A stretch of 64,000 nucleotides of DNA. Source: Pyropia yezoensis (Eukaryota > Rhodophyta > Bangiophyceae > Bangiales > Bangiaceae). Where the stretch lies: positions 38,912,894-38,976,893 of the forward strand of contig CM020618.1 in assembly GCA_009829735.1 (NCBI GenBank), read 5' to 3'. The notes below the pieces were generated by a model that was not told where the DNA came from, did no database searches, and was given only the letters and a program-made list of their open reading frames with translations. A program made the position numbers and the translations under genes. The first letter of the stretch is position 1. Each line of letters begins with the position of its first letter. This document shows positions 39,775-64,000 of the stretch, in pieces.

Positions 39775-40136
39775 TGTAGCAATATGGATGACCGTATTGT
39801 GACCCTAATATAGGGGGACTACTTCTAACTTTTAACTTTCAAGTTGGGAGTCCGCATTGGTCACGGTATCTATAAGTTACGCTTGACCAGAGGGACTTGC
39901 ATCTTGGGGTGGACGGTAGTTAGTAGTGTCTCCGAGGGTTTATAACGAGGGGGCCGGCGGCGAATCCACCGCCGGCCATGGCAGAACAACAAACCCCTCC
40001 CATTTGGGCTCCCATCTTGGTCCCGTGGCTTGCGCTCCAAGGACAGCAACCTTGGCCTCCCGGTGACGTTGGTGCCGATGCCCCTTGGAGAGTGTTCCCT
40101 GAGAGTGGACTTGCAGCGGATACCTATTGTGCTACA
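39775..40136 (+). repeat. LTR1 of element A (362 bp)
   Basis: Starts TGTAGCAATATGG and ends TATTGTGCTACA; near-identical copies occur at 57211 and 58164. A TATA-like TTTATAAC stands at about 39940, followed by a hairpin GGCCGGCGG/CCGCCGGCC and a small ORF (MAEQQTPPIWAPILVPW) at 39978. Termini are mutually inverted (TGTAGCA / TGCTACA). Confidence 0.9.
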
Positions 40137-40137
40137 T

Positions 40138-40160: not shown

Positions 40161-40361
40161 TTCCGTCATCCTTGTGGTGACGCCGTCTTCGGCCCTGGCA
40201 CACGCATAGGGATTTACTCCTTCTCTTGTACTCGTGGTGCTGCGATCTGGTTGATTGTGTTGAGTGGTTGCGTTTGACTTCGATCTACTGTTACTCTCCT
40301 CCAACTCCCCCCTCGCTCTCTTATTCTTGGTGACTGTTACGTCGGTTAACTGATTGTGACT

Positions 40362-42539: not shown

Positions 42540-42759
42540 GAGGAAGGACGACACGGGTTCGCTGGGGCAACCCTAGCAAGCCACCCCGGACTGCCGCGGG
42601 GAAAGCCCCTCGGAGAGCGCGGTTGAGCCGACGCCGCATCAATCCCCGGGTACACCTTCCGGCCCCGACGACACAGCGTCAGGGGATTGATGACCACCCT
42701 CGAAGGTTGGGAGGAGAGGACGGGAAGCCCCGTCACGTTGAACCAGACAAGGGCCCTGT

Positions 42760-43709: not shown

Positions 43710-43722
43710 CCTCCCTCCTCTT
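43710..43722 (-). promoter_or_regulatory. Polypurine tract of element B
   Basis: In element orientation AAGAGGAGGGAGG directly precedes the 3' LTR and overlaps the pol stop codon. This is the expected primer for plus-strand DNA synthesis. Confidence 0.75.
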
Positions 43723-46700
43723 AAACCCGTCGGGAGGAGTTAAAAGCCGTGATCAGCTCGGCCGCGTCGATGTCTTGTTCACGAACCCAGCTGTTTTCCG
43801 TGTCATGATAGCCTTTCCACTTCACCAAGTACTGCGAGCGACCTCGACGCGTACGGTGTTGCAGCACGCGTTCGACTTCGTGCGCTTCAGTGTCGTCGGA
43901 GAGCACAATGGCAGGCGGCGGATTCGGGGAACGGCCAAATCTGGTGTCAGCATGATACGGCTTCACCAGGCTTGCATGAAACGCATTGTGGACCTTCCGA
44001 TCGAGCACTGCTTGAGGGAGATCCAGCCGGAAAGTCATAGGAGTAACCACTTCGGTAATCTTGTAGGGGCCAGAGTACTTCGGCATTAGCTTTCGAGCTC
44101 CTTGGAAGGACTCGGGCATTAGGTTCATGGTGCTTAGCATGACGAGATCGCCGACTGATAAGTGACAGTCTCTTCTTGATTTGTTGACGTATTGAGCTCG
44201 ATAAGCGTTGGCCTTGCGGATGGCGTCGGCAGCCGTTTTGTGGGACTGCCGCAATGTCGCCAACCACTCTGCTAAAGGCGGGACCTTGTTGCTCGGGCTT
44301 CGTAGGGTGTCGAAAGGTACGACATTGGGCTCGTACCCGTACGTCATGTAGAATGGAGAGTACGTGGTTACAGAGTTGATCGAGTGGTTGTACGCGACCT
44401 CCACGTTCGTCAAATACAGGTCCCAGTCGCGTTGGTTGTGATCCACGAAGCACCTGAGGACTTCTTCGACTTTCTTGTTCATGACTTCGGTTTGCCCGTC
44501 CGTTTGCGGGTGGTAAGATGAGGATGGGCGAATCTTGACGTTAATCTTGTCCAACAGTCCGCGCCAGAACTGGGACATAAAAATCCGGTCTCTGTCGCAG
44601 ACGATATCAATTGGAAGTCCAAAGGTTCGGTAGACGTGGTCGTGGAAGAGCTGCGCTACGTGCTTGGCACTTGTCTCAGGTTCTGTCGGAGCCAAACGAA
44701 TCATCTTCGAATGCCGGTCAACAACAACCAAGAGGCCGTTGTGGCCACGTGCCGTTAATGGCAGTGGAGTGATGAAGCCCATGGATATACTTTGCCACGG
44801 TCGGGTTGGCGGTTCCAGGGGTTGTAAAAGCCCCAATGGGGCTTGCGTCGTGCTCGTGAATCGTTGGCAGGCGTCGCAGCTCTGTACGTAATCCTTGATG
44901 TCTTGTCTAATTGTCTTCCAGTAGAACCGGGTGACAAGGTCTTTGGTTGTCTTACGTAGGCTTATGTGACCTTTGCTTGAGATATCGTGGTAGTCGTGGA
45001 GGACTTCATCACGAAAGCGGCCTTTCGGTATGCACACGTGGTCGTATCTAATGATGAAGCAGCCGTCCATCTTGAAGGGCGTCGTTGGTTTCTTGAGGAT
45101 TTCTTTAAACTCAGGGTCTTCCGCATAGGCTGCTAGAAGGCTTTCCTGGTCTTCTTTGTTCAGCTCCAGATGAAACACAGTGCTGATAGGTTGCGCTTCA
45201 TTCTCGGGTTTCATTGGTTCTCGGGTTTTCGTTGGATTCTTGGGATTGTTCAGGGGTTCCCTTGTGGGATAATTGCTCTTGGGGTCTTCGGTGGCGTTCG
45301 TGGCGTCTTCAGGTTCCTTGTGTCTTGTGGTAGTCGTAGCAGTCCCACTATTCGTGGTCGCTTTACGCTTGGGTTGCTTTGGTTTTTCATTGTCCTTGTG
45401 ATTCTTGGGTACACCCCCGGCAATTGTTGGGGGTAGTGCTTTGTCAATGACGCAAGTGAGTAGTTCCAAGTTGGCTTCGATGCGGGACTCCGCAAGTTCT
45501 GTGTTTCGGGAGAGTGCATCAGCCACAGGATTCCTTGTCCCTGGTACTGGTATGATCTTGAAGTCGTATTGCTCCAACATCTCCAACCAACGCACTTGGC
45601 GGTCGTTCAATTTGTCTTGGGTTCTTAGGTAACGTAGCGACTCGTGATCAGTGTGCACGATGAATTGTCGTCCATGCAAGTAGCACCGCCAGTGGCGAAT
45701 GGCTTGTACGATGGCCAAAAGTTCGCGCTCCCTGATGGTATACCGCTGTTCGTGAATTCTTAGTGTTTGGGAGAAGAAGGCCACAGGGCGACGTCCCATT
45801 CCGTCGTCCTGCTCGAGTACTGCACCGACTGCGCAGCCACTTGCATCAGTAGATAACACCACAGGGAGCTCAGGGTTGAATGCCCGAAGTATCGGGGCAC
45901 TCATGACTTTGTCCTTGAGGGAATTGAAGGAGTCCTCTTGGCGTGCGGTCCCCTCGAAGTCGACAATGCTCGTCAGCTCAGTCAGGGGCTTAGCCCCGGT
46001 GGCCATCTTCTCAATGAAGCGACGGTAGAAGTTCAACATCCCGAGGAAGGACTGGACATCGCGCTTAGTCTTAGGCTTTGGCCACTTCTTGATAGCTTCG
46101 ACTTTGACACGTTCCATCTCGAATCCATTGGCTGAGACGACATGGCCAAGGAAGTCTACGGACCTCTGAGCGAACTTGCACCTAGACACCTTGGCGTACA
46201 GCTTGTGCTCGCGGAGTTTGTCTAGGACTTGCCGCAGGTGTCGTATGTGCTCTGCCCTTGTTTTGCTGAAGATCAGTATGTCGTCCAAGTAGGCCGACAC
46301 AAAGTTGTCGATGTAGGGTCTTAAGATGTCGTTGACGAGGTTCATAAAAGTCGCGGGAGCGTTGGTTAGGCTGAATGGTACGACGAGGAACTCAAACAGG
46401 CCGTTTCTCGTTCGAGAAGCCGTCAAGGGGATCGACTCCGGATCAAGTCGGATTTGGTGGTAGCCGGAGCGGAGGTCCAACGTTGTGAATAGGGTTGCTT
46501 GGCGGAGGCTGTCGAAGATCTCGTCGATGCGTGGTAGAGGGTAGCATTTCTTAACCGTCTGCTTATTCAGCGCTCGATAATCGATGCACAGTCGCAAGCC
46601 GCCGTCTTTCTTGGCCGCGAACAGAACCGGTGCTCCCCATGGTGACGTACTCGGTTGAATGAATCCTCTCTCGATTAAGTCTCGTATCTGACGAAGGAGT

Positions 46701-47389
46701 TCCTGGCTTTCAGGCTCAGAAAGCCTGTATATGCCCTTCTTGTGTGGTTCAGCTTCCTCAGTCAGCTCGATCTTGAAAGGCGGTCGGCCGCGGTCAGGAG
46801 GGAGCCCTTTGGGTAGGTCATCCGGGAAGACGTCTTGATACTCGGCTAGTACGTCTTGAATGTCTTTGTCAGTAGACGCTGACGCGGTCTGGATGGAGTT
46901 GAGGCCGATGGATTCATGGAGAACTTGGGGTCTAAGGAAGATTGCGAAAACTGGGTTCCGTCTCTTGATGTGCTGGGCCAGTTTGTGCTTGCTCTAGATG
47001 GTCTTCGATAGTTCTAAGGCAGCGTTGATTCTCAGTCTGCGTCCGTCTTTTAGAAAAGTGATGACATTGGTTTGGTATTTCTTGCGTACATTGTAGTCTT
47101 CGTGCCACTTCTTACCGAGGATGACATCGTAGGCTGCTAACGGGCACACGGCGAAGTAAATGTTGTCGGTGTATTCTTGGGTAGAAATTTCTAATGGATC
47201 TTTGATAGACGTGAGGTTGTGCACATTGCCGTCCGGCATCAGGGCGGCTTCAGTCGAGACTTCCGTTGGTATTCCGAGACGCTTGGCGAATGTGGACGAA
47301 GTGAAATTCGCCAGGGCGCCGTCATCGAAGAGGATTTTAGCGGGCTCACCATTAAGCGTGCCAGCGGAGCTTAGGAGGCGCAAGTGGGG
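43721..47389 (-). pseudogene. Element B protease-RT-RNase H-integrase-chromodomain polyprotein
   Basis: The protease is at 47383-46994 (LFDDGALANF, where DSGA is usual). A TAG at 46994-46996 interrupts it, and the same frame then stays open to 43721 (over 1,080 codons). Reverse transcriptase: FIQPSTSPWGAPVLF, RLCIDYRALNK and SAYLDDILIF. RNase H: LSTDASGCAVGAVL and TDHESLRYL. Integrase: the HHCC zinc finger ending CDACQ, then SMGFITPLP, CDRDRIFMSQFW and YHPQTDGQTEVMNKKVEE. The first catalytic Asp of DDE is Gly (codon 44779-44777). The C-terminus is a chromodomain (VERVLQHRTRRGRSQYLVKW, then ENSWVREQDI), which targets insertion to marked chromatin in chromoviruses. The stop and the lost Asp suggest this copy cannot move itself. 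Confidence 0.88.
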
Positions 47390-47448
47390 TCTATGGAAGG
47401 CGGGCGAGATGTCGGGAACTGAGGCCAGCTTCGGTGGTTTTGGCCTCA

Positions 47449-48267
47449 GCTCCCACGGCCTTTTGGGCAGTCTTTAGCCATGTGCCCCTTGGCGCGGCAG
47501 CGTAGGCACAGGCCTTCGCGCATACAGCGCTAACGCTCTTCTGGTGTATGCTTCACGATCCGGACGTTGGCAATGTCCATGGGGGCAGGCCCGCGGTCCG
47601 CGGCTGTCGCGCCTTCGGTGTTTGAGATGCGTCGAACGCCACGCTTGGCAGCTTCAACTTTCATGGCATCGAGCATCACTTCGTCCAGAGTGTCGTAGCG
47701 CTTGAGGCAGAGCGCTTTCCAGATGTAGCTCTTCAGACCGCGGCTGTAGCGGTCAACCTGCTCGGTCATGGTGATGTCGGGGATGTCAAGGACGATTGAC
47801 TGGAACGACTTATTGTAGCTCGCCACGTCCTTCATCTACTCTCACTTGTGAAGAAGGTCGCGGGCAGCCTGGACCTTGTTCAGAGGGTTAAACCGCACCT
47901 TGAGTGCTTCACGAAGCGTTGGCCAATCCGAGATGTCGGCTTTCCCGGCGTGCGTCTGCCACCACGAGAACGCTTCACCTTGCAGGTACGAGGTGGCGAT
48001 GAGTAGTGCTTCGCCAGTGGTAGCCTTTGCAACAAACGTGTCCATGTGGGACGCCCAGGCATCAATCGCGCCGGCTCGACCGAAAAAGGCCGTTGGCTTA
48101 CTAAGCTTAGGTTTGTCGAAACTGGGTAGGGTTGCCGTGGTTGCCAAATCGAGACGGAGTTGCTCCGTCTCCTGACCCAGTTTTTTCACGTACGAAGTAA
48201 TTTCCGCCCAGTTTTCCGCACTAATTGCAGCAGGGGTACTCGCCCCACTAGTACTGCCAGAAGCCAT
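47449..48267 (-). pseudogene. Element B gag with several in-frame stops
   Basis: The ATG at 48267 (MASGSTSGASTPAAISAENW) opens the gag frame. It is stopped by TGA and TAG near 47836-47844, one codon apart, and by a TAG near 47530, while the frame otherwise continues. Retrotransposon gag features are GRAGAIDAWASHMDTFVA, YLQGEAFSWWQTH and LREALKVRFNPLNK. A CCHC knuckle CLRCRAKGHMAKDC is at about 47509-47468. The protease lies in another frame, so a programmed or mutational shift joins them. The copy is clearly decayed despite the young LTRs. Confidence 0.8.
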
Positions 48268-48317
48268 TGTTGAAAACTAAGCTAACTTTTCAAGAATGCT
48301 ACTGGCAATATGTTCGA

Positions 48318-48808
48318 CTACTTACGCACCACGCGCAGGTGCGACTTGCTGCGGGTGTGGCGGTCGTAGTGCTTGGAGGACTCGAAGACGCGGTCGCAGT
48401 CCCGGCACTTGGGCAGCTTGGGGGGGTTGACCTTGTGGCGGTGGCGACGCGACAGGCGGTGATCGCGCCACACCGCTTCGCCGTAGCACGTCACGTCGCA
48501 AGCCTTGCACGTGAAGCGCTTCTTGTTGATCCGCCCGTGGGCGTTTCGGTACTCCTCGCGGACCGCCCGGCGCTCCACCGTCTGCGCTGTATGCGGGCGG
48601 ATAGCCGCCACTTGACGGGGCGCCGGGGGAGTCACGCGAGGCGCCGGCGGGAGAAGAAGGCGGCGGCCGTGCCGGTCGCGGGGAGGAAGCGCCGGAGCAC
48701 GTTTCGAAGAGGTAGTCGAGGAAGAAGAGCCAGCGGTAGGCGTCGGCACCGGCAGTGAAGCGCTCGCCGAGGAAGACGCCGCCGTCGTTGTCGTCTGGTT
48801 CGGAGCCA
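48318..48808 (-). CDS. C2H2 zinc-finger ORF in the leader of element B
   Basis: On the element's coding strand, between PBS and gag, a frame encodes about 163 residues. It has a Ser/Thr/Pro-rich front, then two zinc fingers: CKACDVTCYGEAVWRDH with RLSRRH (C-x2-C-x12-H-x5-H), and CRDCDRVFESSKHYDRH with SKSH. The long His-His spacing and shape resemble U1/matrin-type or BED-like RNA/DNA-binding fingers. There is no ATG at the front (GTG at 48809), but a pyrimidine-rich CCTTAG acceptor-like site stands there, and a perfect GTAAGT donor-like site overlaps the end. It may therefore be an internal exon. Ty3/gypsy elements normally have no such gene; capture from the host or an accessory role are both open. 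Confidence 0.55.
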
Positions 48809-49437
48809 CTAAGGAATCGAGGACAGGACCAAGAACGGGATAAGTACAAAAGCACCAACACTTCGTCAGATCCTCGCTCCTGCTCCTTGCACCTCAGTGG
48901 AGAGCTGCCGCCGCCCGGGCACGAGGCCACCGGGCGTACGGGAGTCTGCGCCGAGGTGCGCTGGCCAAGCTCGCTGTGCGCCCGTGTAAACACGAAAGTG
49001 GTGGAGTGGGTCGTGACCAGGCTAGAAGCCGGCGACAACCGCAGTCCAAACACTCGCGACCCTGTGGAGGACTGACACGATCCACTTAAGAAGCACGAAG
49101 CTCCCGGACCGGGCAAGCCTGCACAGAGTCGCGCGCAGAGGAGCTCAACCAAAGGTCCAACACTCTCAGTCGTCACCCGACCCGCGCGCGCGACGGTACG
49201 CCCCGTTGGTACCGGACCGACCTCCCCCGCCAGTTGCGCTAGGCAGACTGGGGTGACGGAACGAAGGGGGCCCGGCGAGGGCCGACTCGACCCCGAATGG
49301 CACTATGGCCCGGTGTTGTAAGGGCCGGCCCGAGCACAGTGGGGCACCACGACGAATCGGGGAGAGGCCGGCGAGCCCGAAGGCCACGTTACGGCGCAGA
49401 AGCGCTCGGTGTCGGGGGCGACGCACGCGCACGGAGC

Positions 49438-49458
49438 GGTAACTATCTGAAGCTACCA
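49438..49458 (-). promoter_or_regulatory. Putative primer-binding site of element B
   Basis: Two bases inside the 5' LTR, in element orientation, stands TGGTAGCTTCAGATAG. TGGTAGC is complementary to the 3' end of initiator Met tRNAs (GCTACCA), but the following bases do not obviously fit the usual acceptor stem. A partial-tRNA or different-tRNA primer is possible. Confidence 0.5.
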
Positions 49459-49460
49459 CA

Positions 49461-50410
49461 TGTAGGGTCCACGGCGGGCACGCACGCGCACTCGCGGGCG
49501 CACGCCGCACGCACCCCACACCCACAACACACCACACACACTCTCGACGGCGGTGACGCAGTCGGGGGAGGTGGTGTGGAAGCCGGGGAAGAAGAAGGGT
49601 GTCGGGGGGTGGGTGTGTGAAGTGGGGGTGAGCTTGACGTCGGTGGAAAGGGGTTCTCAGGTACAGTGGTTCTTTGCTTGCGTTCTTCGGTCTACCCTCC
49701 CCAGGTCTCCCCCTCTCGCCCTCGGTCACTCCGTATATATACCCCGGGGGGGGGTCCCTCAGAAGGCCCTCCGTGTGGTCCTCTCGCGGTTGGGCACAAG
49801 TTTCCATAGAATCGCCGGTGTGCGGCGACCCCCCTCTCACAGAGCTCGTCTGAGGGGGTCCACGCCCCCCCTCGGGGTCGGTGTGCCCGTGGACGGCCGT
49901 AGACATGATGGTTAGAGGATGGAAGCTTCGGATGTCATGGATGGCAGGCTCTCGTTGGTCGGGATGGCTGATGGCAGCCAGCCGCCTTGACACTCGGAGG
50001 CCGGGTGCGCTGTCCGCGCTCGGCCGCCTCGGCGATGTCTCGCTTGAATTGACACTGGCGCTACGTTGCGCTGTCGGCGCCAGTTCTTGGTCAGCGGGTG
50101 GATGCCTTGCTCGAATTGACACTGGTGCTACGTTGCGGTGTCGGCGCCAGTTCATGGTCACCAGGTGGATACCGTGTCAGCATTTACGGTGTGCGGCCAC
50201 GTAGCATTGACAGCCATCGTCCGGTTGCATCGTCATCACGGGGGCAGGCGGGATTGAACCGTGAACCTTGCAGATTCGAAATGTGAATGAAGACCAATCG
50301 TCCAGGGAACGCTCGTGCAAGTCATGACATCCGGTACGATTTGAGATCCGGCCTCTGGGGGAATTCCAAGTTGCGACTTGGAATTGCAATGTAAGGATTT
50401 AGTCCTTACA
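49461..50410 (-). repeat. 5' LTR of element B (950 bp)
   Basis: Same sequence as 42760-43709 except two visible differences (TG terminus intact here; C for G at 50405). In element orientation it starts TGTAAGGACTAAATCC at 50410 and ends CCCTACA at 49461. The TATATATA box lies at about 49734-49741. The 67-bp tandem unit is present here too. Confidence 0.92.
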
Positions 50411-50415
50411 CCTGT

Positions 50416-53400
50416 CCAGGATGCCCGAGCTACACCGGATATCGGTGTTGGCCACGTACTGTTTACCTTGGAGAACTTCAAGGTATGAGCCACACTGGGG
50501 GTTGACCCCCGGTCGACCCGATCGTATTACCCTGTACTGGATACAGGGGCTGGACCGAACCTGATCCGGAAGGATAACCTCCCGGACAAGTGGCTCCCGC
50601 GAGTCAGAGTCACTCGGGGACCTACGATCAAGGATGCGAACGGTCGTCTCATTCGTACGACCGCAGCGATGTCGCTGCGGGTCACCATCGCGGAATTCAC
50701 TACGGAAGTCGACTTCCTCGTGTGTGAGACTCTATCTGTGCCCTGCATACTGGGGTGCACCTTCATCAACGTTCACGTTGATGCAATCCAGCCGGGCCGG
50801 AGGACCGTCGAGCTGCAAGAGGCAGACGGGACGAAGAGAGGACAGACAGCTATCGTCAGGGACGTGACGCTACAAGGGAGCCACGTTAACGTGGCTGAGG
50901 TATACGCCAGCGTAGAACCGAAGACACTCCGGCTGGCCAAGCGGACCCGCTTTGAACCGTTATCAGAGACCGTCCTCCCGGTTAACTGTGACCTCGCAGG
51001 CATCTGCAGAGTCCAGTCCAACCTACGAACCTACAAGCGCCATGGGTTGACCATGGCCAACGGTATCGTGGGCCTCCCAGCGGGGGGTTCATCACTGCTC
51101 GTGATGGCGAACTATCGCCGTGAGGCAGTCACCCGTCCGAAAGGAACTATCCTCGGGATCGCCGAGCTCTACGAAGGAGACATCCTTACCCCTGACAAGG
51201 AAGGTCAAGTGGAACCACTTGAGGTACTGGCGGTCACCGAGACCACCGAGCTGAAGGAACCCGACGACGGGAAGCCTAACCCATCAACAGCTCCGGCGGA
51301 CATTCCGCCAAAGGACCAAGAAGCCTTGAAGGCACTGGCCGAGGCTCACCTCGACCACCTTCCCCCTTCAGTAGCCGAAGGGGTACGACGGATGCTAAGA
51401 AAGCATGACGTCATGTGAACCGGCGGGGCGCTGGGTACCATTGGGGCATCCCAACACCGTATAGACCTGGTACCAGATGCACGACCAGCGCGGTCTCAAC
51501 TGCATCGCGCGGGACCTATGCAACGAGAGATTGTTGATTGAGAACTGAAGAGGATGAGCGAAGCCAAGGTGATCCGACCTTTGATGTCGGAATGGGGCGC
51601 CCCAGTAGTGATCGTACCGAAGAAGGATCAAACCTCTCGGTTCTGTATCGATTATCGACGCCTCAACTTGGTTACCAAGAAAGACTCATACCCTTTACCA
51701 AGGATGGACGAGTGTATTGAATCCCTGGGGGAAGCCACAGTGTTTACCACCATCGACTGCAATGCAGGTTACTGGCAGATCCCAGTTGCAGAGGAGGATA
51801 TCCCCAAGACGGCGTTCGTCTGTCACAGTGGAGTGCACGAGCTCCTAAGGATGCCCTTCGGATTGTCTAACGCCCCCGCCACATTCCAGCGGGCCATCGA
51901 CATTATACTGTCGGGAGTGAAGTGGCGTAACTGCCTGGTGTACCTGGACGATGTCATGGTCTTCTCGCGTAACATGGATGACCATGTGCAACATGTCGAC
52001 GAGGTACTCACCCTCTTGCGGAACGCCGGGGTGACCCTGCACCTCAAGAAGTGCGCCTTCTTTCAGCAGACCGTCGAGTATCTGGGTCACTAGATCACAC
52101 CAGGTAAACTGGGAGTGCTCGAAGCTAAAACCCGGGCACTCCGGGATGCGCGATACCCAACCACCCAGACACAGCTGAAGAGCTTCCTGGGGATGCGCAA
52201 CGTATACCGACGGTTCGTCAAGGACTTTGCTCGTATAGCCAAACAGTTAACGGTTCTGACGAGCAGCGCCTTGCCAAAGGTACTCCAACCTCCCTCCCCT
52301 AGCGAGAGAGAGGCGTTCGAGCTGCTCAAGCAAGCTCTGCTAGCCCCACCCGTGCTTGCGGTGCCGCATAGACGCGGGACCTTCGTCATCAACGTCGATG
52401 CCTGCGATACCCACGTGGAATGCACCCTGTTACAGGGAGAGACAATCATCGGTATCGAAAATGCTCTCCCGGACCTGCAATCGGTAGGATACTTCAGCCG
52501 GACACTCAAACCGGCTGAGCGTAACTACAGTGCTACCGAGCGCGAGTGCCTCGGAGTCATATGGGCAGTGCAACTGCTCCGGCCATACCTGGAAGGATCC
52601 AGGTTCATCGTGAGGTCCGACCACGAACCTCTACGATGGCTCCTCAACCTTGTTGACAAGGATTGCGACAGCCATGGACGGCTAGCCCGGTGGAGGCTGA
52701 AGATGGCCGAACACGACTACCGGACCATATATATGGCCGGCTCCACCCATCATCTGGGAGACGCGCTGTCGCGACTCGACCCACCGAGCGGGGATACCCG
52801 ACAGGTGGACAAAGACATCCCGGTTGTACCGGTTTGCATGGTGGGTAACGCCACCCTGGGTATGGTTGACCATACCATGGCACACCTTGCGTGCCCATAT
52901 ACCTTGCGTGCCCAATAAGCCTCACGGACTTCCGCGAGGCACAGGCCAATGACGATAACTGTGAACGCCATCGCGCTAACCCCCTGGCCGGCAGGGCCGG
53001 CATCTCCTCCGAGAACGAGGACGGACTCATATACCGGCGGGCACCCGCCGATGGACGGCACCAGGTCGTGGCTCCCGTGTCCTTACGACAAGCCGTCATG
53101 GAACGAGAACACGAGAACCCCACAGCCGGACACCCAGGGGGTTCGCGCTTGTTCGCAGCAATGCGAAGGTTCTTCTACTGACCAGCAATGGCCGTCGACG
53201 TAGTCGACCACGTGCGGGGATGCCACCCGTGTGCACGGAATCGTATGAGTCTTCATAGGCGGACATCCGCTATGAAACTGTTCCCCCCGGATGGGCCCAA
53301 CGAGCAAGTCGCTATCGACATACTCGGGCCGCTTCGTAACGGAAGAAGGGAACAGGTACATCCTGGTCATGTCGGACCGCTTTACTAAGCTGCCACGAGC

Positions 53401-54376
53401 AGTAGCGATCCCGAACGACACGGCCTACATGATCATCAACGCAGTGGTTGACCACTGGATCAGTGCTTACGGAGTAATGAAGCAACTCCTCTCCGACAAC
53501 AGAGCAAACCTTACGTCAGCATTCAGCACTAAGGTCATGGGCATGTTCGGTATCGAACCACGTCGGGCATCCGACTACCACCCGGTCGCGGCGTCGGTCG
53601 GTGACCACCCGCAATCCAATGGGCAGGTGGAACGGTTCAACCGCACCATCGTCAAGATGCTCCAATGCTATGTGGCGGAACACACGAACACGTAGGACAG
53701 GCTTCTATCCGTACTGACCCTGGCATACAATGCCAGGCCCCACCGGAGTACCAGCATTGCTCCATTGGAATGGGTCATGCCAATGGGCGTCGGTAATCTG
53801 ACGCTGCCACCGGGCAGATGCACTCGGTATGACATACCGAAGGGCCGACCGGCCGAACGGATCCACTTAGCTTGGTAGGCCAAGCTATCGTGGATGATAC
53901 CTAAGCTCAAGGGTGCCCTTGACCGTACACAACTTCGATACAAGAAGAACTTCGACGCCCGACTACGGGTACGCAACGCGACCCTGGTAACAGATGACTG
54001 GGTCTACATCAGACACCAGAAGCTCCGAGGGAACAAGCTTACGCATCCGGTCAAGGGACCGTACCAGATCCTATACAGAGATGATCACTCTGTAATCCTG
54101 CACTCCGATACGGAGATACAACGCATCAATCTCAATGATGTGACATCTGCTCCAAAGCCGGAACAGCCTCAGCCGGTACCGGCTGGGTTGTTACATGAAG
54201 CTCTTACAACCCACCGGTCAGATGACCCGGTGGGGCCGGATGGGATTCCATACCAGGTCGAGAGCGTGGTCGGACACACCGACCCGGACCTACCAGGACC
54301 CTGGTACGTCAAGGTGACTCACCCACCTGGGAACAGGCGGCGAATATACCCCGCCAACTTCTCATGCCTCACATGA
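50416..54376 (+). pseudogene. Element A protease-RT-RNase H-integrase, several stops and shifts
   Basis: The protease has LDTGAGPNLI (Asp codon at 50540). The frame goes on past stops at 51416, 51539 and 52091 through reverse transcriptase: EWGAPVVIVPKKDQ, FCIDYRRLN, VYLDDVMVF, YLGH* and SFLGMRNVYRRF. RNase H follows (ERNYSATEREC, then RSDHEPLRWLL, then HLGDALSRL). Integrase starts near 52900 in another frame: HENPTAGHPGG, GCHPCARNR, VAIDILGPL, a further shift, then LLSDNRANLTSAF and SNGQVERFNRTI. TGA at 53179 and TAG at 53693 stand where C has Trp. No autonomous product is possible. The C-terminal part (53894-54376) is basic and chromodomain-like only in position. Confidence 0.85.
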
Positions 54377-54845: not shown

Positions 54846-57209
54846 TCAGGGGGTACCGCTGCTGCCTGAAGGAGGCCACTCACGCGTAGTCGCGCACACT
54901 TCCATGCTCCACCGGTCGGCAATCTCGCGACGGTCAATCGCCTGAGCTACCTCAGTGCAAAGCTGCAATAGGGTGCTGCGGCCAGCCTCCACTTCCTCCA
55001 GAGCTATCTGGAGGCGGTCCTGCACACCACCGAAGCAACGCGCGGAACCAACCAGCGCAGCACCTGGGGGCATATCCCCCCAGCTAACAGAGAGACCCTC
55101 CCGCAGCTCGCGGGAAACGAGGACATGAACGCCCTCATACCATAGACGGGGACCGCCATCTTGCATGACAGGGGCGGGAGGTGACACTGGCGCAGCCAGA
55201 GGAGCCACAGGAGCCGACACGGCTAGCACCGGAGCCGGTGCCACCCGATACGAGGCCCGGTGGGACCCCATGGAAGGGGCTCCCCCGTAAAACCGGCGGG
55301 ACTCCGCCCGGCGACGGGACACCTCACGCTCCCCACCCGTAGAGTCCCACTCTCGGGGACGACGGCCATTACTCACCGGTATCGTGTTAGAGAACCGCGG
55401 AGCCAAGACCTGGAGAGGGTCATGGATAACCATGGGAATACCCAGGTCAGGAACAGCCTCGGTGGATGCCCACACACGGTAACTGGGCGCACCCAGCTGA
55501 GTACGCCGGATGCGCAACGAGTGACGAGGCAAGGGGGCAGCCCCAGCCTGTGGATCCCGGTACGGGGGAAGGGTCAACACCCCAGCCCAGTTCACGGCAT
55601 CGTGAACGGCCAGGAGGGCCTCGAACTCCCGGGCCAACCCGGTCTTGGCAGCTATCATGTCGACGCCCAGCTGCCCGATATGCCGACGGACACCCGTCGG
55701 AAGATGAAACAACCGCCCCTGTCGACGGACGGACAGCAAGAAGGAGGAAGCCTGCCCGAGGGTAACCTCGAGGGTGAAGGTCCCCTGCAACGGGTGCACA
55801 GGCCGGGAGGCCAACACACTACCGATGTATCAGAGACAGGAGCCGGTGTCAAACCGGAAAGCAGGGGCGGGCTCCCACCCCTCCTGCCACAGAGGCGGGC
55901 GCACGGGCGTGTACACCGGCGCGCGACCGTTACCGGTCTGCAACGCACACGTTATATCGGTGCGGAACGCATCCGCCATGACACCATGGTTACGTCGCCA
56001 GCTCGACGCCGACTTCAGCCCCGCCATGGGCGGGTACGGAGCCGTCAACGTCAGATACGGGGATACCCCCGGGAAGTACTCAAACCCGGGATACCGGCCG
56101 GTATCGCCCACCGTCTGCCCGAACGCCACAGGATCCACCTCAGACGCAACCCCCCGAGCACTAGCCGGGTATTCAACCTCCCGCGGCAACGCGGGGGCAT
56201 TCAAGTCGCATATCCCGAAGGCGGGGTCGAGAAAGACTTCACCCCGTCCCACCCGAGTGCGCCAGAGCTGCGCATGCCGGTCGTCCGGCTGACTCAGAAT
56301 CCAATGGTGCTCCACCCGGACCGCATTCGGCTGATTGACCAGCCGCGCGAACTCCCGGTCCCAACTCGGGTCCAACTTGACGCGCCGGGAGGACCCTCCG
56401 CGGTGGCTCGGTGGGTGGAAGTCCACCCGCATCCGCCCAGCGGAGTCCATGGACTCTTGCACGGTGAGGCCTCGGACCCGAGCCACCAAGTCGGTCACCG
56501 ACATAGAGGGGTGACCCGCCACCAAGGCGACGCCGCAACCCAGCGGGCCAATCCGGTCGGGCGCAGGAAGAATAGGCGGCGCCGGGGGAAGCCCCACCGG
56601 CAGAGAGCCGGCGCCGCAGGCGCACGAGGGCGAGGAGGAAGAAGAAGGGCGGGCGCCCGCCCGGAGTAGCTCCCGGTGTCCACCGCCATCGGGGCAGACA
56701 CGTCTTGACCACCTGTCGCCCGCGGCACCGCGGGAAGAGCGCCGGCACCATCCGGGCCCGACGAAGGCACGATGGGGGCGGAGGGGGTCGACCCGTCAAC
56801 CACCCCCGAGGACGGACCACCAACCGGGCGGGAACCCGCACCGTCTTGACCCGCCGTCCCGGCCGGGGTGCCGCCACGACCGTCAGAAGCACCAGCTGCA
56901 CCTTCTTGAGGTTGAGCCACGCCGGCACCGGCGACAGGAGCCATCCGGGCCGCCGGAGGAGTAGGGGTAGAAGCCGCCACACGCGGTTGACTGCCCCCCG
57001 ACGGAGCCGTCGTGCCGCTGCAGACGGACGACAACCCGCCCGGCGCGCCTTCGGCAGCCGCACGAACGGTCACCCGATCGTCGTCGTCCGACGAGCTCGC
57101 CAGTAAGCACTCGGCGGCGGTGGCGGAGACGGGAACGTCGTCCTGCATCACCTCCTCCTCCTCAAGCAGGAGGTCGTCCTCGCCCCCGGGCACCTGGGGG
57201 TCCGCCATG
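54846..57209 (-). pseudogene. Antisense accessory ORF of element A (conserved with element C)
   Basis: An ORF on the strand opposite to gag-pol. Its ATG at 57209 touches the inner edge of LTR2 (MADPQVPGGEDDLLLEEEE...). The N-terminal part is acidic and then Pro/Ala/Gly-rich. After a frame change near 56600 a structured region follows (SVTDLVARVRGL, then DREFARLVNQ, then VEHHWILSQPDDRHAQLW). A TGA at 55828-55830 interrupts once. The same frame then runs to 54846: TLEVTLGQASSFLL, then RLFHLP, then HIGQLGVDMI. A C-terminal block has LWYEGVHVLV and IADRWSMEVCA. The antisense ORF of element C aligns in the same order. No known domain is recognised; it is neither gag nor integrase. It may be driven by antisense transcription from LTR2. 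Confidence 0.65.
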
Positions 57210-57210
57210 G

Positions 57211-57573
57211 TGTAGCAATATGGTTGGCCGTATTGTGACCCTAACACTAAGGGGGCTACTTCTAATCCTTAACTTTCAATTTGAGAGTTCGTATTGGTCA
57301 CGGTATCTATAAGTTACGTATGACCAGAGGGACTTGCATCTTGGGGTGGAGGGTGGTTAGTAGTGTCTCCGAGGGTTTATAACGAGGGGGCCGGCGGCGA
57401 ATCCACCGCCGGCCATGGTCGAACAACAAACCCCTCCCATTTGGGCTCCCATCTTGGTCCCGTGGCTTGTGCTCCAAGGACAGCAACCTTGGCCTCCCGG
57501 TGACCTTGGTGCCGATCCCCCTTGGTGAGTGTTCCCTGAGAGTGGACGTGCAGCGGATACCTATTGTGCTACA
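57211..57573 (+). repeat. LTR2 of element A (363 bp), internal copy
   Basis: Third copy of the A-type LTR, slightly more divergent than the other two (for example CTAACACTAAGGG where they have CTAATATAGGG). It is followed by a primer-binding-like TGGTGGATCCGGGGTAGC. It is not preceded by a purine tract, so it looks like a 5' LTR and not like the 3' LTR of the A body. Confidence 0.9.
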
Positions 57574-58163
57574 CATGGTGGATCCGGGGTAGCAGGGGCG
57601 CCCCGTGCCAAGAAAGCCGCAGCCGGCTCGACCCGGTACAAGGAAAACTCGCGGACGAGCCAGGGAAGCGCGGGCACCCGCGCTTATAACCACACAGCTC
57701 AGCACGAGCGATACGGCAGCGCGGGACGACCCGCGCCAGCCGAGCTACGAGGTCGCTCCACCCAGGCACCTGGGTCGGGCCACGCCCCCCCCACACGGGG
57801 TAATCAAGGGGGGTCACCCCACAACCACCCCCACGCAACGCGGGCAGCCCCCGCCCCCACTCACTTTTCCACACGAGAGGGGCCCCCCTACCGCCAGACG
57901 CCTGGTGGCGGATCCACGTGCACCACCCCTCGGAAAGGGGGGTCGTGAACAAAAACCCGCATCGGGAATTCAACGGTCCGGAAAACGGATCGTGTGTGTA
58001 CCACACAAAGGGGGGCACCCCGCTCAGACAACCCCGAAAAGGAGTGTCTGTCGCGACAGGGCGCAAATCCCCACCCGTCTGGTAAACGGTCGCGCGACCC
58101 ACTTACATTCGGAAAGCCGAATGCAACTCGACCCAAGGATGGGCCGAATCTAGGGGGGGGATA
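57574..58163 (+). other. 590-bp non-coding unit between LTR2 and LTR3
   Basis: It begins with a primer-binding-like site and ends with a purine tract (AGGGGGGGGA, about 58152-58161) just before LTR3. It therefore has the ends of a complete LTR element without genes, like a short non-autonomous element. Open frames on both strands are Pro/Arg-rich and not convincing. Confidence 0.6.
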
Positions 58164-58525
58164 TGTAGCAATATGGATGACCGTATTGTGACCCTAATAT
58201 AGGGGGACTACTTCTAACCCTTAACTTTCAAGTTGGGAGTCCGCATTGGTCACGGTATCTATAAGTTACGTATGACCAGAGGGACTTGCATCTTGGGGTG
58301 GTGGGTAGTTAGTAGTGTCTCCGAGGGTTTATAACGAGGGGGCCGGCGGCGAATCCACCGCCGGCCATGGCAGAACAACAAACCCCTCCCATTTGGGCTC
58401 CCATCTTGGTCCCGTGGCTTGCGCTCCAAGGACAGCAACCTTGGCCTCCCGGTGACGTTGGTGCCGATCCCCCTTGGTGAGTGTTCCCTGAGAGTGGACG
58501 TGCAGCGGATACCTATTGTGCTACA
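58164..58525 (+). repeat. LTR3 of element A (362 bp), right end
   Basis: Very similar to LTR1, including the small ORF start at 58368 (MAEQQTPPIW...), which here stops after 37 codons because of TGG TGA. It is followed by the target duplication CCATG at 58526. Confidence 0.92.
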
Positions 58526-59692
58526 CCATGTTGGCTAGCGATCCGTATGACACGGTCCAAGTCCACCGGTCCTCTGAGGCAGAGGGCCCCCTACACCCGG
58601 GTGCACCTGGAGGTAAAGTTTAATTCTATCCCCTGCTGCTCCACCGAATGTGGCAAAAACCACTCGCACACGCGACACCCAAGTTGGGGCGGTGCGCAAG
58701 GGCTGCCTCCCGTGTCGGGGGAACCGGAAGAAGTGCAAGTCGCACACACTCTGTCCCTGTTGTGGGGCAATCCGCCCACTAACAAACAAGAAGATGGTGT
58801 GTGGGCCAACAGTTTCTTGGTCGGGACGAGGAAGCAAGGCCAAACCCCGCTGTCCCTCCCCTTATCCCCCCAGGGTCCCCTCAGGATCTCACCACTCAGA
58901 ATCTCCCACCCGCTGGGGTGGTGCTGACCTGCCCACCGGGCCACACGAAAATTGAAGACGATAAATGCAGAAAACCCTCAAATCCAAGTTGGATTTACTA
59001 CTAAGCTAACTATCCCAAACTCAGGGAATATGGACCCAAATGCAGGGGGAGGAACGGGTCAGGCTAGTGGCCTGCCGCCCCTTGCATGGCACGTGTTGCC
59101 CCCCTACCTGGGGGTCAATACTGCCACAGCGGCTGCTCTTGTCGCGGAAGCGCGCGTCGTATGCGGTCTTTCCGCGTCTCGTACCCGACCTCTGTCGCTA
59201 CGCGCACGTCACCCCGACGCTGCTGCGGCGGGCGATGGAACGGGCTGAACGCGTCGCACACCCGGGGCTCGGTAAGGTGCACCCCCTGTTGGCGGTGGGT
59301 CGCGGTACGAATGGGAGTGCCGGTGTCGCCAAGCTGGCCACCATGGTCGGGGTGCGCACAAGACGGTCCCGCTTTTTCCCGTAAGTCGTTACTGACGGGA
59401 CAGGTATCGTCTTTACGCTGTAGCGGCCCGCCGATGCGGCCGAGGTCATGGACGCGCAAGCGCGCCAGGCCCGACGACTGCAGGGCGGCAACAGGACCAC
59501 GTCGGGCGGCGGGGTGACGAGCCTGGAACACCAGGCGGCCGTCATGGGGCTACCCCTTGACGGGAAGGTCAAGAAGTGTGTGGTGGGCGTGGACCCGGGG
59601 GTCAATGACATCTACGCGGTCTACTCGCTGGGCCTGGATCCTGACCTTGTGCTCTTTCCGTCGCCGCACGTGTTTGCGTACCGGTCGGAGCG
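58526..59692 (+). other. Chimeric stretch: Z leader, Cys-cluster ORF and RuvC-like fragment
   Basis: The first part is the continuation of Z (its leader on the minus strand). On the plus strand a frame at about 58650-58955 has a dense Cys cluster, GCLPCRGNRKKCKSHTLCPC, spaced like the first part of a fungal-type Zn2Cys6 finger. From about 59090 to 59692 protein-like plus-strand sequence appears: a region near 59170-59380 with LLRRAMERAERVAHPGLG, a short intron-like interruption (GTAAGT...TGTAG, 59381-59423), and a frame from 59448 with CVVGVDPGVNDIYAVYS, which resembles the RuvC-I motif of TnpB/Fanzor-type nucleases. All pieces are partial. The frame across the intron-like part does not close, so this is a broken gene at best. 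Confidence 0.35.
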
Positions 59693-62050
59693 GAGTATCT
59701 GGGGCATGTGCTGAGTCCGGGGGAGCTCCGAGTCAATGAGAAGAACATCAAGGCCCTCCGGCATGCACGGCAACCCAAAACCCAGACGGAACTCAAGAGC
59801 TTCCTGGGTATGTGCAACGTCTATCGTCGGTTCGTACGGGACTATGCTCTGATTGCCCGGCCACTGACCAAGCTGACCAGCAAGAAGCTTCCCGCACAAC
59901 TCCCGGTGTTCGACGAGAAGCAGACCGCGGCCTTCGAAGAGCTCAAGAAGCGCCTGACCACCACTCCAGTACTGGCGTTACCCAAGCGGGAGGGCCAGTT
60001 TGTTCTGGAGACGGATGCCTGTGGCGTCCAGGTGGGGTGCTCACTACTCCAGCAGCAACCTGATGGGCACTTCCTCCCGATAGGCTACTACAGTCGCGTC
60101 TTGACTCCAGCTGAGAAGAACTATTCCACGACCGAGCGCGAGTGCTTGGCAGTCGTCTGGGCTTGCTTCCTGTTACGGCCATATCTTGAAGGACAAGAGT
60201 TCCTCATCCGGACGGACCACGCTAGCCTAAGGTGGCTGCTATGTATGGACAGCAGTCAAAGAAGGGTCGCCCGGTGGCGCCTACGCCTTTCGGAGTTCAA
60301 GTACAAGGTGTGCACCAGAGCAGGGAGGGAGCACCACTGCGCCGACACCATGTCCCGGCTGGAGACTCCTGCAGCCGATACCGGTCCTATCCCGGAGGAA
60401 ATACCTTGCTTCATCCTCCCGAATGTCGGACGTGGCTGGCACGCTCCCCTGTATGAGACACCTGAAGCTCATCAACCGGTGACCATTCACCGGATGCTGG
60501 AGGCACAACTGACGGACCCTCAATGCTTGGAGCTTCGCCACCAAATGGACCTGAACCGGAACAGTCGTTTCTCCGAGTCTACGGACGGACTCCTAGTACG
60601 GGTGTCACCCTTCGATGGGGCCACTCAAGTCTACGTACCCCGGGGCCTACGAGCTGACATCCTACGCCTGGAGCACTCGTCTCCCCAGGCCGGACATCCT
60701 GGTATCAATCGGATGTATGCTTCCATGAGACGACACTATTACTGGGAAACCATGGCCAGTGACGTCCACAAGTACCTGGAGGCTTGTGTTTCTTGTGCAA
60801 GGAACCGGTTGTCCCAGAGGAAGAAGACTTCTAAGCTACGCCTATTCCCTGCGGCGGAGCCCTTTGCAAGCTTAAGCATGGACATCCTGGGGCCCCTACC
60901 TGAAACATCCAGTGGCAACATATACCTGCTCATCTTTTGTGACCGGTTCTCCAAGTTCACTCGAGCAATCCCGCTGAGGACCATCACGGCTCTGGATGTC
61001 ACGTCAGTCTTCTGCGAGTACTGGATAGCTGCCTACGGCCCTCCAGACTCCGTCTTAACCGACAATGGTCCCCAGTTTGCATCCCTGTTCTTCCAAGGAG
61101 TCTGTGACCTGATGGGCATCAAGAACTTGTACACTACGACGTACCATCCTCAAACGAACGGCCAGGTGGAACGATTCAACCGGACCCTAGTAGACATGCT
61201 ACGGCACTACCTGGAGGAGCACCAAGAAGACTGGGACGAGCTCCTGGCTGTCCTCACCCTAGCCTACAACTCCCGAGTTCACCGGACAACGGGGGTCGCT
61301 CCACTCGACTTTGTCACCCCAAGGCGGCTGACCAACTTCTCCCTGGAAAGAATACCAGACGGTCTCCAGCCTGCACTGAAGTCAGGTCCCAAGGCAAAGG
61401 ATGAGTTCCTGGAACAACTGAAGCTCCTGCTCCCAAGAGTCAAGGAGTCAATCTCGAAGACCCAGGAGCGATACAAGCGGGGCTATGACAAGGGCATTCG
61501 GGAAAAGAACAAGGAACTGGGTGGTGGCGACTGGGTTTTTGTGGACAACCATAGCAAGACCCGGGGGAAGCTGGACTCGAAGACGGATGGACCTTATGAG
61601 ATCCTGAATACGGACGGTTGGACCTTTCTTCTAGACGTGGATGGCTCCCCGTACCGCGTGAGCAGCGACCATGTCACCCGAGCTCCACCGCCAAGCCAAC
61701 GGGACTTGACCCGGCGCAAGCGGGCCGCAGTACCCTGGCTATCCCAAGAAGAAGGTCGGGAATATGTCTACGTCAAGTTTGTGGACCATGCCTGGAGAGA
61801 CGGACGCCTGTACCTGCGAGTACGCTGGTTCGGTTTTAACCCGGCAGATGATACCTGGGAACCCTCAAACCGGCTACCCATCGCGGATGTCTGTGCCTAC
61901 ACGCGACGGAACGGGATAGAGGGCACTCCAGTGGCCAGAGCCGGCAAGATTCTGGAGTCGGACTCGGAGGAGGACCAAGAGGATGGGGCCAACCAAGACC
62001 CTCGGGACGAGCCGAGTTCATCCACAACGGATGCGGAACAAGAGGATTGA
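59693..62050 (+). CDS. Element C RT thumb, RNase H and integrase polyprotein, 5'-truncated
   Basis: The retroelement reading begins with EYLGHVLSPGELRVNEKN at 59693. It lacks the fingers, palm and YxDD box of reverse transcriptase. RNase H is intact in appearance (LETDACGVQVGCSLL, then TERECLAVVWA, then RTDHASLRWLL, then HHCADTMSRL). Integrase has the zinc finger (HSSPQAGHPG, then CVSCARNR) and a full DDE set: SMDILGPLP, LTDNGPQFASLF and NGQVERFNRTL. A chromodomain-like segment follows (YVYVKFVDHAWRDGRLYLRV, then DDTWEPSNRL) and an acidic tail. The frame is open for 785 codons without a stop, in contrast to A and Z. Because RT is headless, this copy could only be moved in trans. It is the best reference for the lineage. 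Confidence 0.85.
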   Translation, partial: EYLGHVLSPGELRVNEKNIKALRHARQPKTQTELKSFLGMCNVYRRFVRDYALIARPLTKLTSKKLPAQLPVFDEKQTAAFEELKKRLTTTPVLALPKREGQFVLETDACGVQVGCSLLQQQPDGHFLPIGYYSRVLTPAEKNYSTTERECLAVVWACFLLRPYLEGQEFLIRTDHASLRWLLCMDSSQRRVARWRLRLSEFKYKVCTRAGREHHCADTMSRLETPAADTGPIPEEIPCFILPNVGRGWHAPLYETPEAHQPVTIHRMLEAQLTDPQCLELRHQMDLNRNSRFSESTDGLLVRVSPFDGATQVYVPRGLRADILRLEHSSPQAGHPGINRMYASMRRHYYWETMASDVHKYLEACVSCARNRLSQRKKTSKLRLFPAAEPFASLSMDILGPLPETSSGNIYLLIFCDRFSKFTRAIPLRTITALDVTSVFCEYWIAAYGPPDSVLTDNGPQFASLFFQGVCDLMGIKNLYTTTYHPQTNGQVERFNRTLVDMLRHYLEEHQEDWDELLAVLTLAYNSRVHRTTGVAPLDFVTPRRLTNFSLERIPDGLQPALKSGPKAKDEFLEQLKLLLPRVKESISKTQERYKRGYDKGIREKNKELGGGDWVFVDNHSKTRGKLDSKTDGPYEILNTDGWTFLLDVDGSPYRVSSDHVTRAPPPSQRDLTRRKRAAVPWLSQEEGREYVYVKFVDHAWRDGRLYLRVRWFGFNPADDTWEPSNRLPIADVCAYTRRNGIEGTPVARAGKILESDSEEDQEDGANQDPRDEPSSSTTDAEQED

Positions 62051-62195
62051 GAAGAAGGGAACGGGTATATCAAGGAGAACACGCAATACAAGCATGGAAC
62101 AATCAAGGAAAACAAGCACCCGCTCGGGCAACTCTTCTCTCCGCCTCTTCCCTCCTCGCTTCTCCCAAGACCTTCACCCTCCTTGCCTCCAACTA

Positions 62196-63980
62196 CTACT
62201 CCCGGCGCGGACGCTGAGCCGCGGGAGTGTCCTCCAGCGCTGCCTCCGCGGCACGACGGGAACCGGAGGAAGACGGGATGACGTAGTGCGGTGGACGCGG
62301 TGCATCCCGGTATGACGCCATCGGAGTAGTACCGGTAGTTGCCGGGGGCTCCCGCTCATCCAGATATGCCCGTCGGCGCCCCTGGAAGCCAGTGAAGGTT
62401 TCTGACCACTGCTGGGCCAAGCCATGCCGCGTCAAGGTCGCCAGAAGTTCGCCAACCACCGGGCTGTTCGACATCTGGCCGCTGTCCGCGCAAGCAAACA
62501 CCCAGTCGACCACGTTGTTCAAGACGCTGGCGTAAGTACCCAGCACCAGGGAGGACCCAACGCCTTCGACCTGCACCGGAAGACGACCCAGCTGGTCTTC
62601 AATCATACCGACGTCGTACTGGTCGCATGTCGGACCACCATGGATCAGGTACCAGTCAGGCACCCGGAAGCGGGTAAGGCGCAGAGTCGGCGCCGGAATC
62701 TCGAACCGCCCCGAGGATGACACCACCGGACGGTCCACAACGGCCCCCGAAACCGGAGTACCCAACTCCAGCGGAGGCACAGCGCCGCCGGCGTTGGAAG
62801 AAGGCGTCCGAGGCGGAGCGGCCGGAGTGGTAGGCGACCGCACGGTCACCCCCAGACTCGCCGCAGACAGGCGCGGTGCCGGAGGAGCTTGAAGTGCCGG
62901 CACAGCCGGAACAGGGCGTGAATGCGCCGGCGACGGTTCAGGCGAGGCCACCGGGGCGACAGGTGCAACAGAAGGAAGCGGAGCCGCCGCAGACGCCCGA
63001 CCGACCGCCGCGGCCCATCCCGACTCCTGCATCGGCGGCCCAACTGGCAGAAGATCAAGGGCGGCCGGGACAGGAAAGCTACCTAGCTGCGGCCACGCCG
63101 GAAGCGGCGTCGCCAGCTGCACCTTGGCCGGAGAAGACTGGTAGACCACCTGCGCCCAACCGAAGCCATCCCGACGCGGGCGGTTCTGGTCGGCAATCGC
63201 GTTCAAGAAGTTCCGGTCATGCACCGGCACCAGACGCCGGAAGTCAATCATCGCCCGGAAGAGCCCCTTGTACTCTTCGTCCTGGCTGCACAGGAAGTCG
63301 ACGGTCAACTTGTCGACAATCCAGACCATCAGGAGGTCAGGGAGAAACCAAAGCCGGTTGGACACCAAGACCTCGTGAAGCCAGTGGTTGGCCGCCAAGA
63401 CTGTCATCTCGGACGTGTACATCATGTACGGGATCGAGTGGAAGAAGCCCTTGATCGACGCCTGAGTCAAGGCGTCCAAGAAGTACCAGGTGAAGGGGAT
63501 GCTGGAAGGAGCAAACCCGACCGGGATCTCGACTTCCTCCTGCTGCGGGATGACCTTGGGGTAGTACGCCGCCCGGTTAGCCTTATCCAGCTTCCAGAAC
63601 TCCTGATGGTTGCAGCTCACGAGGAAGTCACGCTGGCGGCCGCGTCGCTCGCCTTGCTCCCGTGCCGGTGACAACTTGGAGTACTTCCGGGTCGGGAAAG
63701 GCGGCTCCAGAGCGACCATGCTCGGACGGGGGTCGCAGTTCAGGCTCCCCGACCCCTTGAGCGCCTCTTCCCAGACCTTGAGCGCCCGGTGGACGTACCC
63801 TTCCTCCTCCGGCCACCGGAGAACGGACGCGGACACGCGACGCTCGGGCAAGGGTAGATCCAGCACCAGCGCGAAGGGGAGATCCTCCAGACGAGCAACC
63901 CAAGAGGAACCCGAGAAGCTCTGGGAGCGGTATTGTGCCAGGCGCATCTGGTCCGCCGTGTGAAGACGAGCCTTATCCAT
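62196..63980 (-). CDS. Antisense accessory ORF of element C, intact
   Basis: A minus-strand frame of about 594 residues from the ATG at 63980 (MDKARLHTADQMRLAQYRSQ); it stays open to the window edge, so a longer N-terminus is possible. It converges on pol with only 145 bp between stops. Region 1 (about residues 1-300) is well structured: WVARLEDLPFALVL, then NHQEFWKLDKANRAAYYPKV, then IPFTWYFLDALTQASIKGFF, then MTVLAANHWLHEVLVSNRLW and FLPDLLMVWIVDKLTVDFL. A Pro/Ala-rich linker follows (about 310-420). Region 2 has PDWYLIHGG, IEDQLGRLPVQ and GLAQQWSETFTGFQGRRR. The equivalent ORF of element A shares these blocks in order. I recognise no domain. Hydrophobic helices in region 1 could be membrane-associated or simply a helical core. 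Confidence 0.7.
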   Translation of the reverse strand: MDKARLHTADQMRLAQYRSQSFSGSSWVARLEDLPFALVLDLPLPERRVSASVLRWPEEEGYVHRALKVWEEALKGSGSLNCDPRPSMVALEPPFPTRKYSKLSPAREQGERRGRQRDFLVSCNHQEFWKLDKANRAAYYPKVIPQQEEVEIPVGFAPSSIPFTWYFLDALTQASIKGFFHSIPYMMYTSEMTVLAANHWLHEVLVSNRLWFLPDLLMVWIVDKLTVDFLCSQDEEYKGLFRAMIDFRRLVPVHDRNFLNAIADQNRPRRDGFGWAQVVYQSSPAKVQLATPLPAWPQLGSFPVPAALDLLPVGPPMQESGWAAAVGRASAAAPLPSVAPVAPVASPEPSPAHSRPVPAVPALQAPPAPRLSAASLGVTVRSPTTPAAPPRTPSSNAGGAVPPLELGTPVSGAVVDRPVVSSSGRFEIPAPTLRLTRFRVPDWYLIHGGPTCDQYDVGMIEDQLGRLPVQVEGVGSSLVLGTYASVLNNVVDWVFACADSGQMSNSPVVGELLATLTRHGLAQQWSETFTGFQGRRRAYLDEREPPATTGTTPMASYRDAPRPPHYVIPSSSGSRRAAEAALEDTPAAQRPRRE

Positions 63981-64000
63981 CTCTGTCAAGACCCCGCGCT

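Follow-up and report, generated by a model that had tools for sequence, protein, structure and literature searches.

Two long terminal repeat (LTR) retrotransposons, hereafter referred to as elements A and C, lie in a stretch of 64,000 nucleotides (nt) of the Pyropia yezoensis genome (hereafter the window), and each carries a large open reading frame (ORF) directly after pol, on the strand opposite gag-pol. Both ORFs, one interrupted by a stop and a frame shift (A) and the other open (C), are present as stated in the original prediction, which regarded them as a possible new accessory gene. The best explanation overall, with a probability of about 0.78, is that they represent an old accessory gene of a Ty3/gypsy (chromovirus-like) retrotransposon lineage of Bangiales red algae, encoded antisense after pol. 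The assembly searched contains 107,475,971 bases in 11 contigs, and the window is located on a 43.6-Mb contig.

Intact copies of families A and C fit the organization of Ty3/gypsy elements, with LTRs, gag and a pol in the order protease, reverse transcriptase (RT), RNase H and integrase, the protease, scanned in A, scoring 25.1 bits, below its cut-off of 28.2. One intact A copy (L021/L020) has LTRs of 365 nt that are 99.5% identical, a gag-like frame of 731 amino acids (aa), a pol of 1423 aa with protease-like, RT, RNase H and integrase matches, and an antisense frame of 909 aa; the antisense frame of a second A copy (L022/L023) has 825 aa. The LTRs of the C copy L050 (512 nt, 98.8% identical) lie ~9.08 kb apart, and five further LTR pairs have a spacing of 9077-9081 nt. 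In these three copies, for which both LTRs were placed, the antisense ORF lies between pol and the 3' LTR. The first ATG of the antisense gene of L050 is ~52 nt from the LTR, and a second ATG (L050:854), ~245 nt from the LTR, resembles the starts of other families (MSSSEIQ).

The arrangement recurs throughout the genome. A 323-residue query identified at least 124 scored places for family A, from 2165 candidates, with an in-frame stop in six of them, and a 299-residue query identified at least 131 for family C, from 1861 candidates, with a stop in nine; these counts are lower bounds biased toward intact copies, only the best candidates having been scored. A lack of further copies beside pol had been named beforehand as a result that would speak against an accessory gene, but the pol tail was found on the strand opposite the antisense ORF at all 20 C loci and at nine of the 10 A loci fetched, the tenth (L011) having no pol in the fetched stretch. 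Counted among these loci are L026 and L010, which are the copies in the window itself, and L009, which duplicates window A with 99.98% identity.

The region after pol was also inspected in six loci that represent different open-frame classes in the RT list. In two of them, pol is immediately followed by an antisense ORF, of 995 aa in L053 (family D) and of 608 aa in L054 (family E). The other four (L051, L052, L055 and L056) have no comparable antisense ORF in this position, their minus-strand frames (256-406 aa) starting further off, and nine superfamily proteins yielded a single weak match against them. The E query gave 97 matches with identities from 100% to ~26%, many open over more than 600 residues, and the D query gave 54. 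An RT match was found 4.2-5.8 kb away on the opposite strand for six of six D matches and for 12 of the 23 E matches used from the 97; the RT side of this pairing comprised the 27 matches beginning at profile position 1 among 150 scored from 3927 candidates, and an unpaired match does not, therefore, imply absence. In a further family, F (L060/L067), the antisense ORF lies tail-to-tail with a pol 51% identical to that of C (polC). The position of the ORF directly after pol is, thus, common to at least three further families, D, E and F, the 3' LTR being placed for the A and C copies only. Long open frames are also present in two distant relatives, G (L061/L068) and H (L059/L069).

Selection on the antisense frame and common origin

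The ratio of non-synonymous to synonymous divergence (dN/dS, or omega) in the ORF frame was determined for eight diverged pairs. It was 0.35, 0.38, 0.27 and 0.34 in four pairs of A copies, 0.20 in the pair L020/L023, and 0.17, 0.11 and 0.15 in three pairs of E copies. The values in the off-frames, the mirrored frame apart, numbered 32 and ranged from 0.89 to 5.70, 31 of them exceeding 1. The mirrored plus-strand frame, which has the same codon phase, gave an omega of 0.23-0.54, higher than that of the ORF frame (0.11-0.38) in all eight pairs, and contained 10-17 stop-bearing codons, versus 0-1 in the ORF frame. Differences concentrated at third codon positions (e.g. 41:20:131 in the E pair L054/L063). 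In family C, the variants common to at least three of 22 loci (L019 and L026 being the same copy, and L030 the reference copy) comprised 31 synonymous changes, 23 non-synonymous changes and no stops, out of 1843, 4970 and 198 possible changes, respectively, corresponding to an omega of ~0.28. In all six stretches examined, the longest open frame was longer than that of any of 300 dinucleotide shuffles; in the window-A stretch this frame (480 aa) lies on the plus strand, on the mirrored side, because the antisense ORF is broken there. As dN/dS is below 1 in the ORF frame and, the mirrored frame apart, above 1 in all but one of the off-frame values, the antisense ORF is almost certainly a real, selected protein gene rather than a chance ORF. 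The earlier suggestion that selection was plausible is, therefore, in agreement with ratios well below, and not near, 1.

The predicted count of about 10 identities over 26 ungapped residues shared by A and C was exact (10/26). Direct comparison of the two proteins was nevertheless marginal (two-sequence blastp, E-value of 0.026 over a stretch containing this block), and nothing was found when the A profile was compared with the C profile alone (P 0.76). With intermediate families added, the relation was significant. Pairwise phmmer searches (Z=20000) connected D with E (2.4e-21), C with F (1.1e-8), E with F (2.8e-7), E with H (3.3e-8) and D with G (5.5e-9); the A-F match was not significant (1.1), yet fell on the same stretch. 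Profile comparison gave P values of 2.6e-4 for the E family against A, 0.0011 for E plus A against C, and 5e-5 for F plus C against A; in each of these three comparisons, none of 100 column-shuffled targets scored as high, and the best-matching stretch included the 26-residue block. The relatedness claimed for A and C thus holds through the intermediate families, with alignments better than those of shuffled sequences, whereas it is marginal for the two proteins taken alone. Hypothetical proteins of Pyropia vietnamensis also matched, one of A type (P0009, E-value of 6e-60) and two of E type (P0011 and P0012, 47-48% identity over 92% of the query), the comparison being of protein entries; the C query retrieved only one protein database entry, 96% identical. 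As judged from these alignments, common descent is shown for the antisense genes of A, C, D, E and F, and it is highly probable that their proteins form one superfamily.

Families A, C, D and E have RTs that are 60-76% identical to one another and 37-41% identical to seven RT rows of another clade (rows L005 and L006, which were misread, are excluded). The antisense gene is lacking after pol in three of these seven rows (L001, L002 and L066), and the remaining four are near-copies. In this small sample, the antisense gene so appears to track one pol lineage. A chromodomain at the integrase C-terminus scored above the cut-off of 25.1 bits in E (38.7) and F (26.0) and below it in C (20.2-20.5) and D (20.9), and none was reported in A. 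Between A and C, identity is 45.9% over 1000 columns for pol and 28.6% over 255 aa for gag, whereas the antisense proteins of the two families can be linked only by profiles and, thus, evolve faster. The C-terminal tail of family D pol (L053:558-1469, plus strand) contains, after a chromodomain-like stretch, a match to Dam-type DNA N6-adenine methyltransferase (PF05869, E-value of 2.1e-7, 31.2 bits against a cut-off of 28.1; PHROG DNA methyltransferase, E-value of 1.2e-5), with an NPPP stretch. A methyltransferase domain of Dam type is known in DIRS elements.

Proposed role and alternative explanations

In the reading that we favour, the antisense gene, lying between pol and the 3' LTR opposite gag-pol and ending tail-to-tail with pol, would be expressed from a separate antisense mRNA, which would start upstream of the ATG, within either the leader or the 3' LTR, and be translated into protein. 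The protein would combine a helical N-terminal part, seen in the E model, with linkers rich in proline/alanine or arginine/serine and with a C-terminal part predicted, with low confidence, to be helical. It may act as a nuclear trans-acting helper that tunes transcription of the element, resists silencing or assists integration, and effects of the antisense RNA may come on top of this role. The nuclear regulatory function, inferred by analogy with the plant proteins GENE23 and TRP28, is a tentative proposal that falls somewhat short of probable.

Several observations weigh against this reading. Conservation between L020 and L023 is lower in the leader (86.8%) than in the coding core (96.1%), and the leader thus provides no promoter signal. 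Two of the three E pairs have one codon column that, in the frame of the ORF, reads as a stop, and the window-A-like copies L010, L011, L013 and L014 display pairwise omega values of 0.56-1.10, as in decaying copies; this subfamily looks decayed. The E profile matched C alone only weakly (P 0.043, with one of 100 shuffles as high). The antisense proteins gave no Pfam match above the cut-off and no sequence match in the Protein Data Bank. The AlphaFold model of P0012 (E type, 20 rows) has a low confidence, with a mean predicted local distance difference test (pLDDT) score of 46.5, and no fold match to it stood out; its residues ~21-170, mostly with pLDDT >70, are largely helical. Arginine/serine-rich stretches are present in E and D, but not in A and C. 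Finally, pol is missing from the ~2 kb read past the 3' ends of G and H, which are either genes standing on their own or components of a different type of element. G-like and H-like sequences were found at several places.

A structural protein encoded on the other strand, either a second Gag or an Env-like protein, would be in keeping with the size of the products (~600-1000 aa), the predicted helical N-terminal part and a rate of evolution that, like that of gag, exceeds that of pol. However, a gag-like frame that weakly matches a zinc knuckle is already present in A and in C, and six antisense profiles showed no homology to the gag A/C core (hhalign P 0.28-0.6), although a remote fold identity with Gag is possible. 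An Env-like protein would be encoded in the sense orientation and have transmembrane segments, whereas the genes considered here are antisense and the maximum 19-residue hydropathy of five antisense proteins is 0.89-1.54. We therefore consider a structural role unlikely. Repeated capture of a host gene, of which G and H would be the stand-alone host relatives, would account for the lack of pol past the 3' ends of these two loci, but the common position and orientation of the gene in A, C, D, E and F, together with the relatedness of the RTs of A, C, D and E, fit a single gain followed by descent, and the dispersal of G-like and H-like sequences also argues against it; we judge repeated capture to be quite unlikely.

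The two remaining alternatives dispense with a functional protein. As the gene converges on pol, the transcripts could pair, and an antisense RNA regulating gag-pol by double-stranded RNA, as discussed for plant elements in PMC7264820, might be the only useful product; selection at the codon level makes this very unlikely, such an RNA effect being conceivable as an addition to the protein but not as its replacement. Long spurious frames, opened opposite genes by GC-rich sequence and codon bias on one strand, do occur, the shuffles of the D stretch reaching 821 aa and the plus-strand frame of window A being 480 aa long. Nevertheless, the observed frames surpass their shuffles in all six stretches, there is no conserved coding sense frame of which the ORF could be the mirror image, the mirrored frame having the higher omega and the stops in every pair, and similarity at the protein level extends to a second species. 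Chance or mirror ORFs without a product are, thus, extremely unlikely. Beyond the favoured reading of an old antisense accessory gene, a stably ambisense Ty3 lineage in red algae can be envisaged, in which the third gene is as old as the lineage, diverges faster than gag and pol, may have a new fold, and has stand-alone relatives in G and H, such that its exchange between element and host, in either direction, would be possible; we regard this extended version as rather improbable.

Annotation of the window

Features of elements A and C in the window and positions of the distant relatives G and H on contig C1
Feature	Position	Strand	Remarks
5' LTR, element A	39775..40136	+	Matches the LTR of an intact family-A copy at 92.9% over 364 nt
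gag-like ORF, element A	40350..42536	+	Open to 42065; 85.5% aa identity over 731 residues to P0006
Insertion in element A	~42762..50410		Gap between L021 matches 39769-42761 and 50411-55962
Remaining pol, element A (protease part, RT, RNase H, integrase)	50411..54316	+	Frames broken; tblastn with polA 82% over 1311 columns; domains read on intact copy
Antisense accessory ORF, family A	54849..57208	-	ATG 57208-57206; one in-frame stop 55830-55832; one frame shift
26-residue block common to A and C, A copy (TLEV...FHLP)	55698..55775	-
Nested solo LTR on antisense start codon of A	57211..57573	+	Target duplication CATGG at 57206-57210 and 57574-57578
Leader, A antisense start codon to 3' LTR	57574..58162		Length in intact copies: 586 nt (L020) and 592 nt (L023)
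3' LTR, element A	58163..58525	+	94.8% match over 365 nt
pol, element C, 5'-truncated (RNase H, integrase, chromodomain-like tail)	59609..62047	+	95% identity to polC of L050; Pfam on 59708-62047
Antisense accessory ORF, family C	62199..64000	-	Open, no stops; continues past the window edge to ~64535
26-residue block common to A and C, C copy (TSEM...WFLP)	63339..63416	-
Distant relative H (L059/L069)	C1:15606300-15610900
Distant relative G (L061/L068)	C1:30710300-30714800

The frame shift in the A antisense ORF lies between ~56660 and 56504. Its ATG abuts an LTR, from which antisense LTR transcription had been proposed, but the target duplication includes this start codon, and the contact is, thus, an accident of the solo-LTR insertion; a leader of ~590 nt separates ATG and LTR in the two intact copies. 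P0006, the gag-like relative of the element A ORF, contains a CCHC-like zinc knuckle that scores below the cut-off of Pfam. The insertion in A holds a minus-strand element (ORF 43724-46993) of the other pol clade, the one without the antisense gene, with an RT ~40% identical to that of polA. A minus-strand frame (HGIHLVTMNWRRHRN...) recurs at 42642-43475 and 49169-50176, suggesting the two LTRs of this nested element. An inverted copy of window positions 53349-57315, 99.98% identical over all 3966 bases fetched, was found ~100 kb away on the same contig (L009, C1:38862757-38866722), and reflects either a recent segmental duplication or an assembly artefact. The remains of a further Ty3 element, with an RT 51-56% identical to that of polA and a weakly gag-like frame, occupy 35.8-38.9 kb on the minus strand, beside some masked sequence.

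Element C is cut on its left side at ~59.6-59.7 kb, and the frame of its antisense ORF, 779 residues from stop to stop, ends at L019:4535. A second gag-pol element in the opposite orientation (L019:4807-8614, minus strand) adjoins this ORF outside the window; it is missing beside the C copy in L046, indicating a separate insertion.

Comparison with known systems

Antisense accessory genes of LTR retrotransposons have been described in plants and fungi, and their function is not known, according to PMC7264820. The claim of a possible new accessory gene can, thus, be retained for a selected and common gene antisense after pol, but not for the arrangement itself. According to the genome paper of P. 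yezoensis (PMC7423979), 48% of the genome consists of repeats, mostly LTR retrotransposons, and genes were predicted on repeat-masked sequence, such that antisense genes of this kind would be missed; the word "antisense" is absent from its main text. No report of antisense ORFs in red-algal retrotransposons was found among the top results of searches of the open-licence literature, which largely excludes subscription papers, and, within these searches, the protein superfamily and its host lineage appear to be new.

There is a close likeness to the aORF-3R of plants (maize Grande gene23, rice RIRE2 and PvRetro13), in which an antisense ORF also lies between pol and the 3' LTR. As in that group, the ORF is antisense to gag-pol and its protein is conserved in many copies (the scored copies being biased toward intact ones); the host here is a red alga rather than a plant, and the likeness is one of description. 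GENE23 of Grande is described in PMC7264820 as nuclear and expressed from its own promoter. The antisense protein TRP28 (PF04195) of Retand is conserved across its lineage and has been proposed to be a DNA-binding regulator (PMC11963269). PF04195 had no match in 20 superfamily proteins (E-values up to 5) or in seven (up to 10), in a scan in which the HMMER filters discard most matches above ~0.1; moreover, Retand is a non-chromovirus according to the same source, whereas E and F have a chromodomain above the cut-off. Boty of Botrytis cinerea and Sclerotinia sclerotiorum, likewise compared by description, extends the arrangement beyond plants (PMC7264820), and HBZ of human T-cell leukaemia virus (HTLV), an antisense retroviral nuclear protein, provides an analogy without claimed homology (PMC11963269). 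The range of identities within one genome (~26-100% among the E matches) provides variation on which structure prediction and studies of localisation and promoters can draw. That red algae, distant from plants and fungi, also have a selected superfamily of this kind suggests that an antisense third gene is either a recurrent or an ancient solution.

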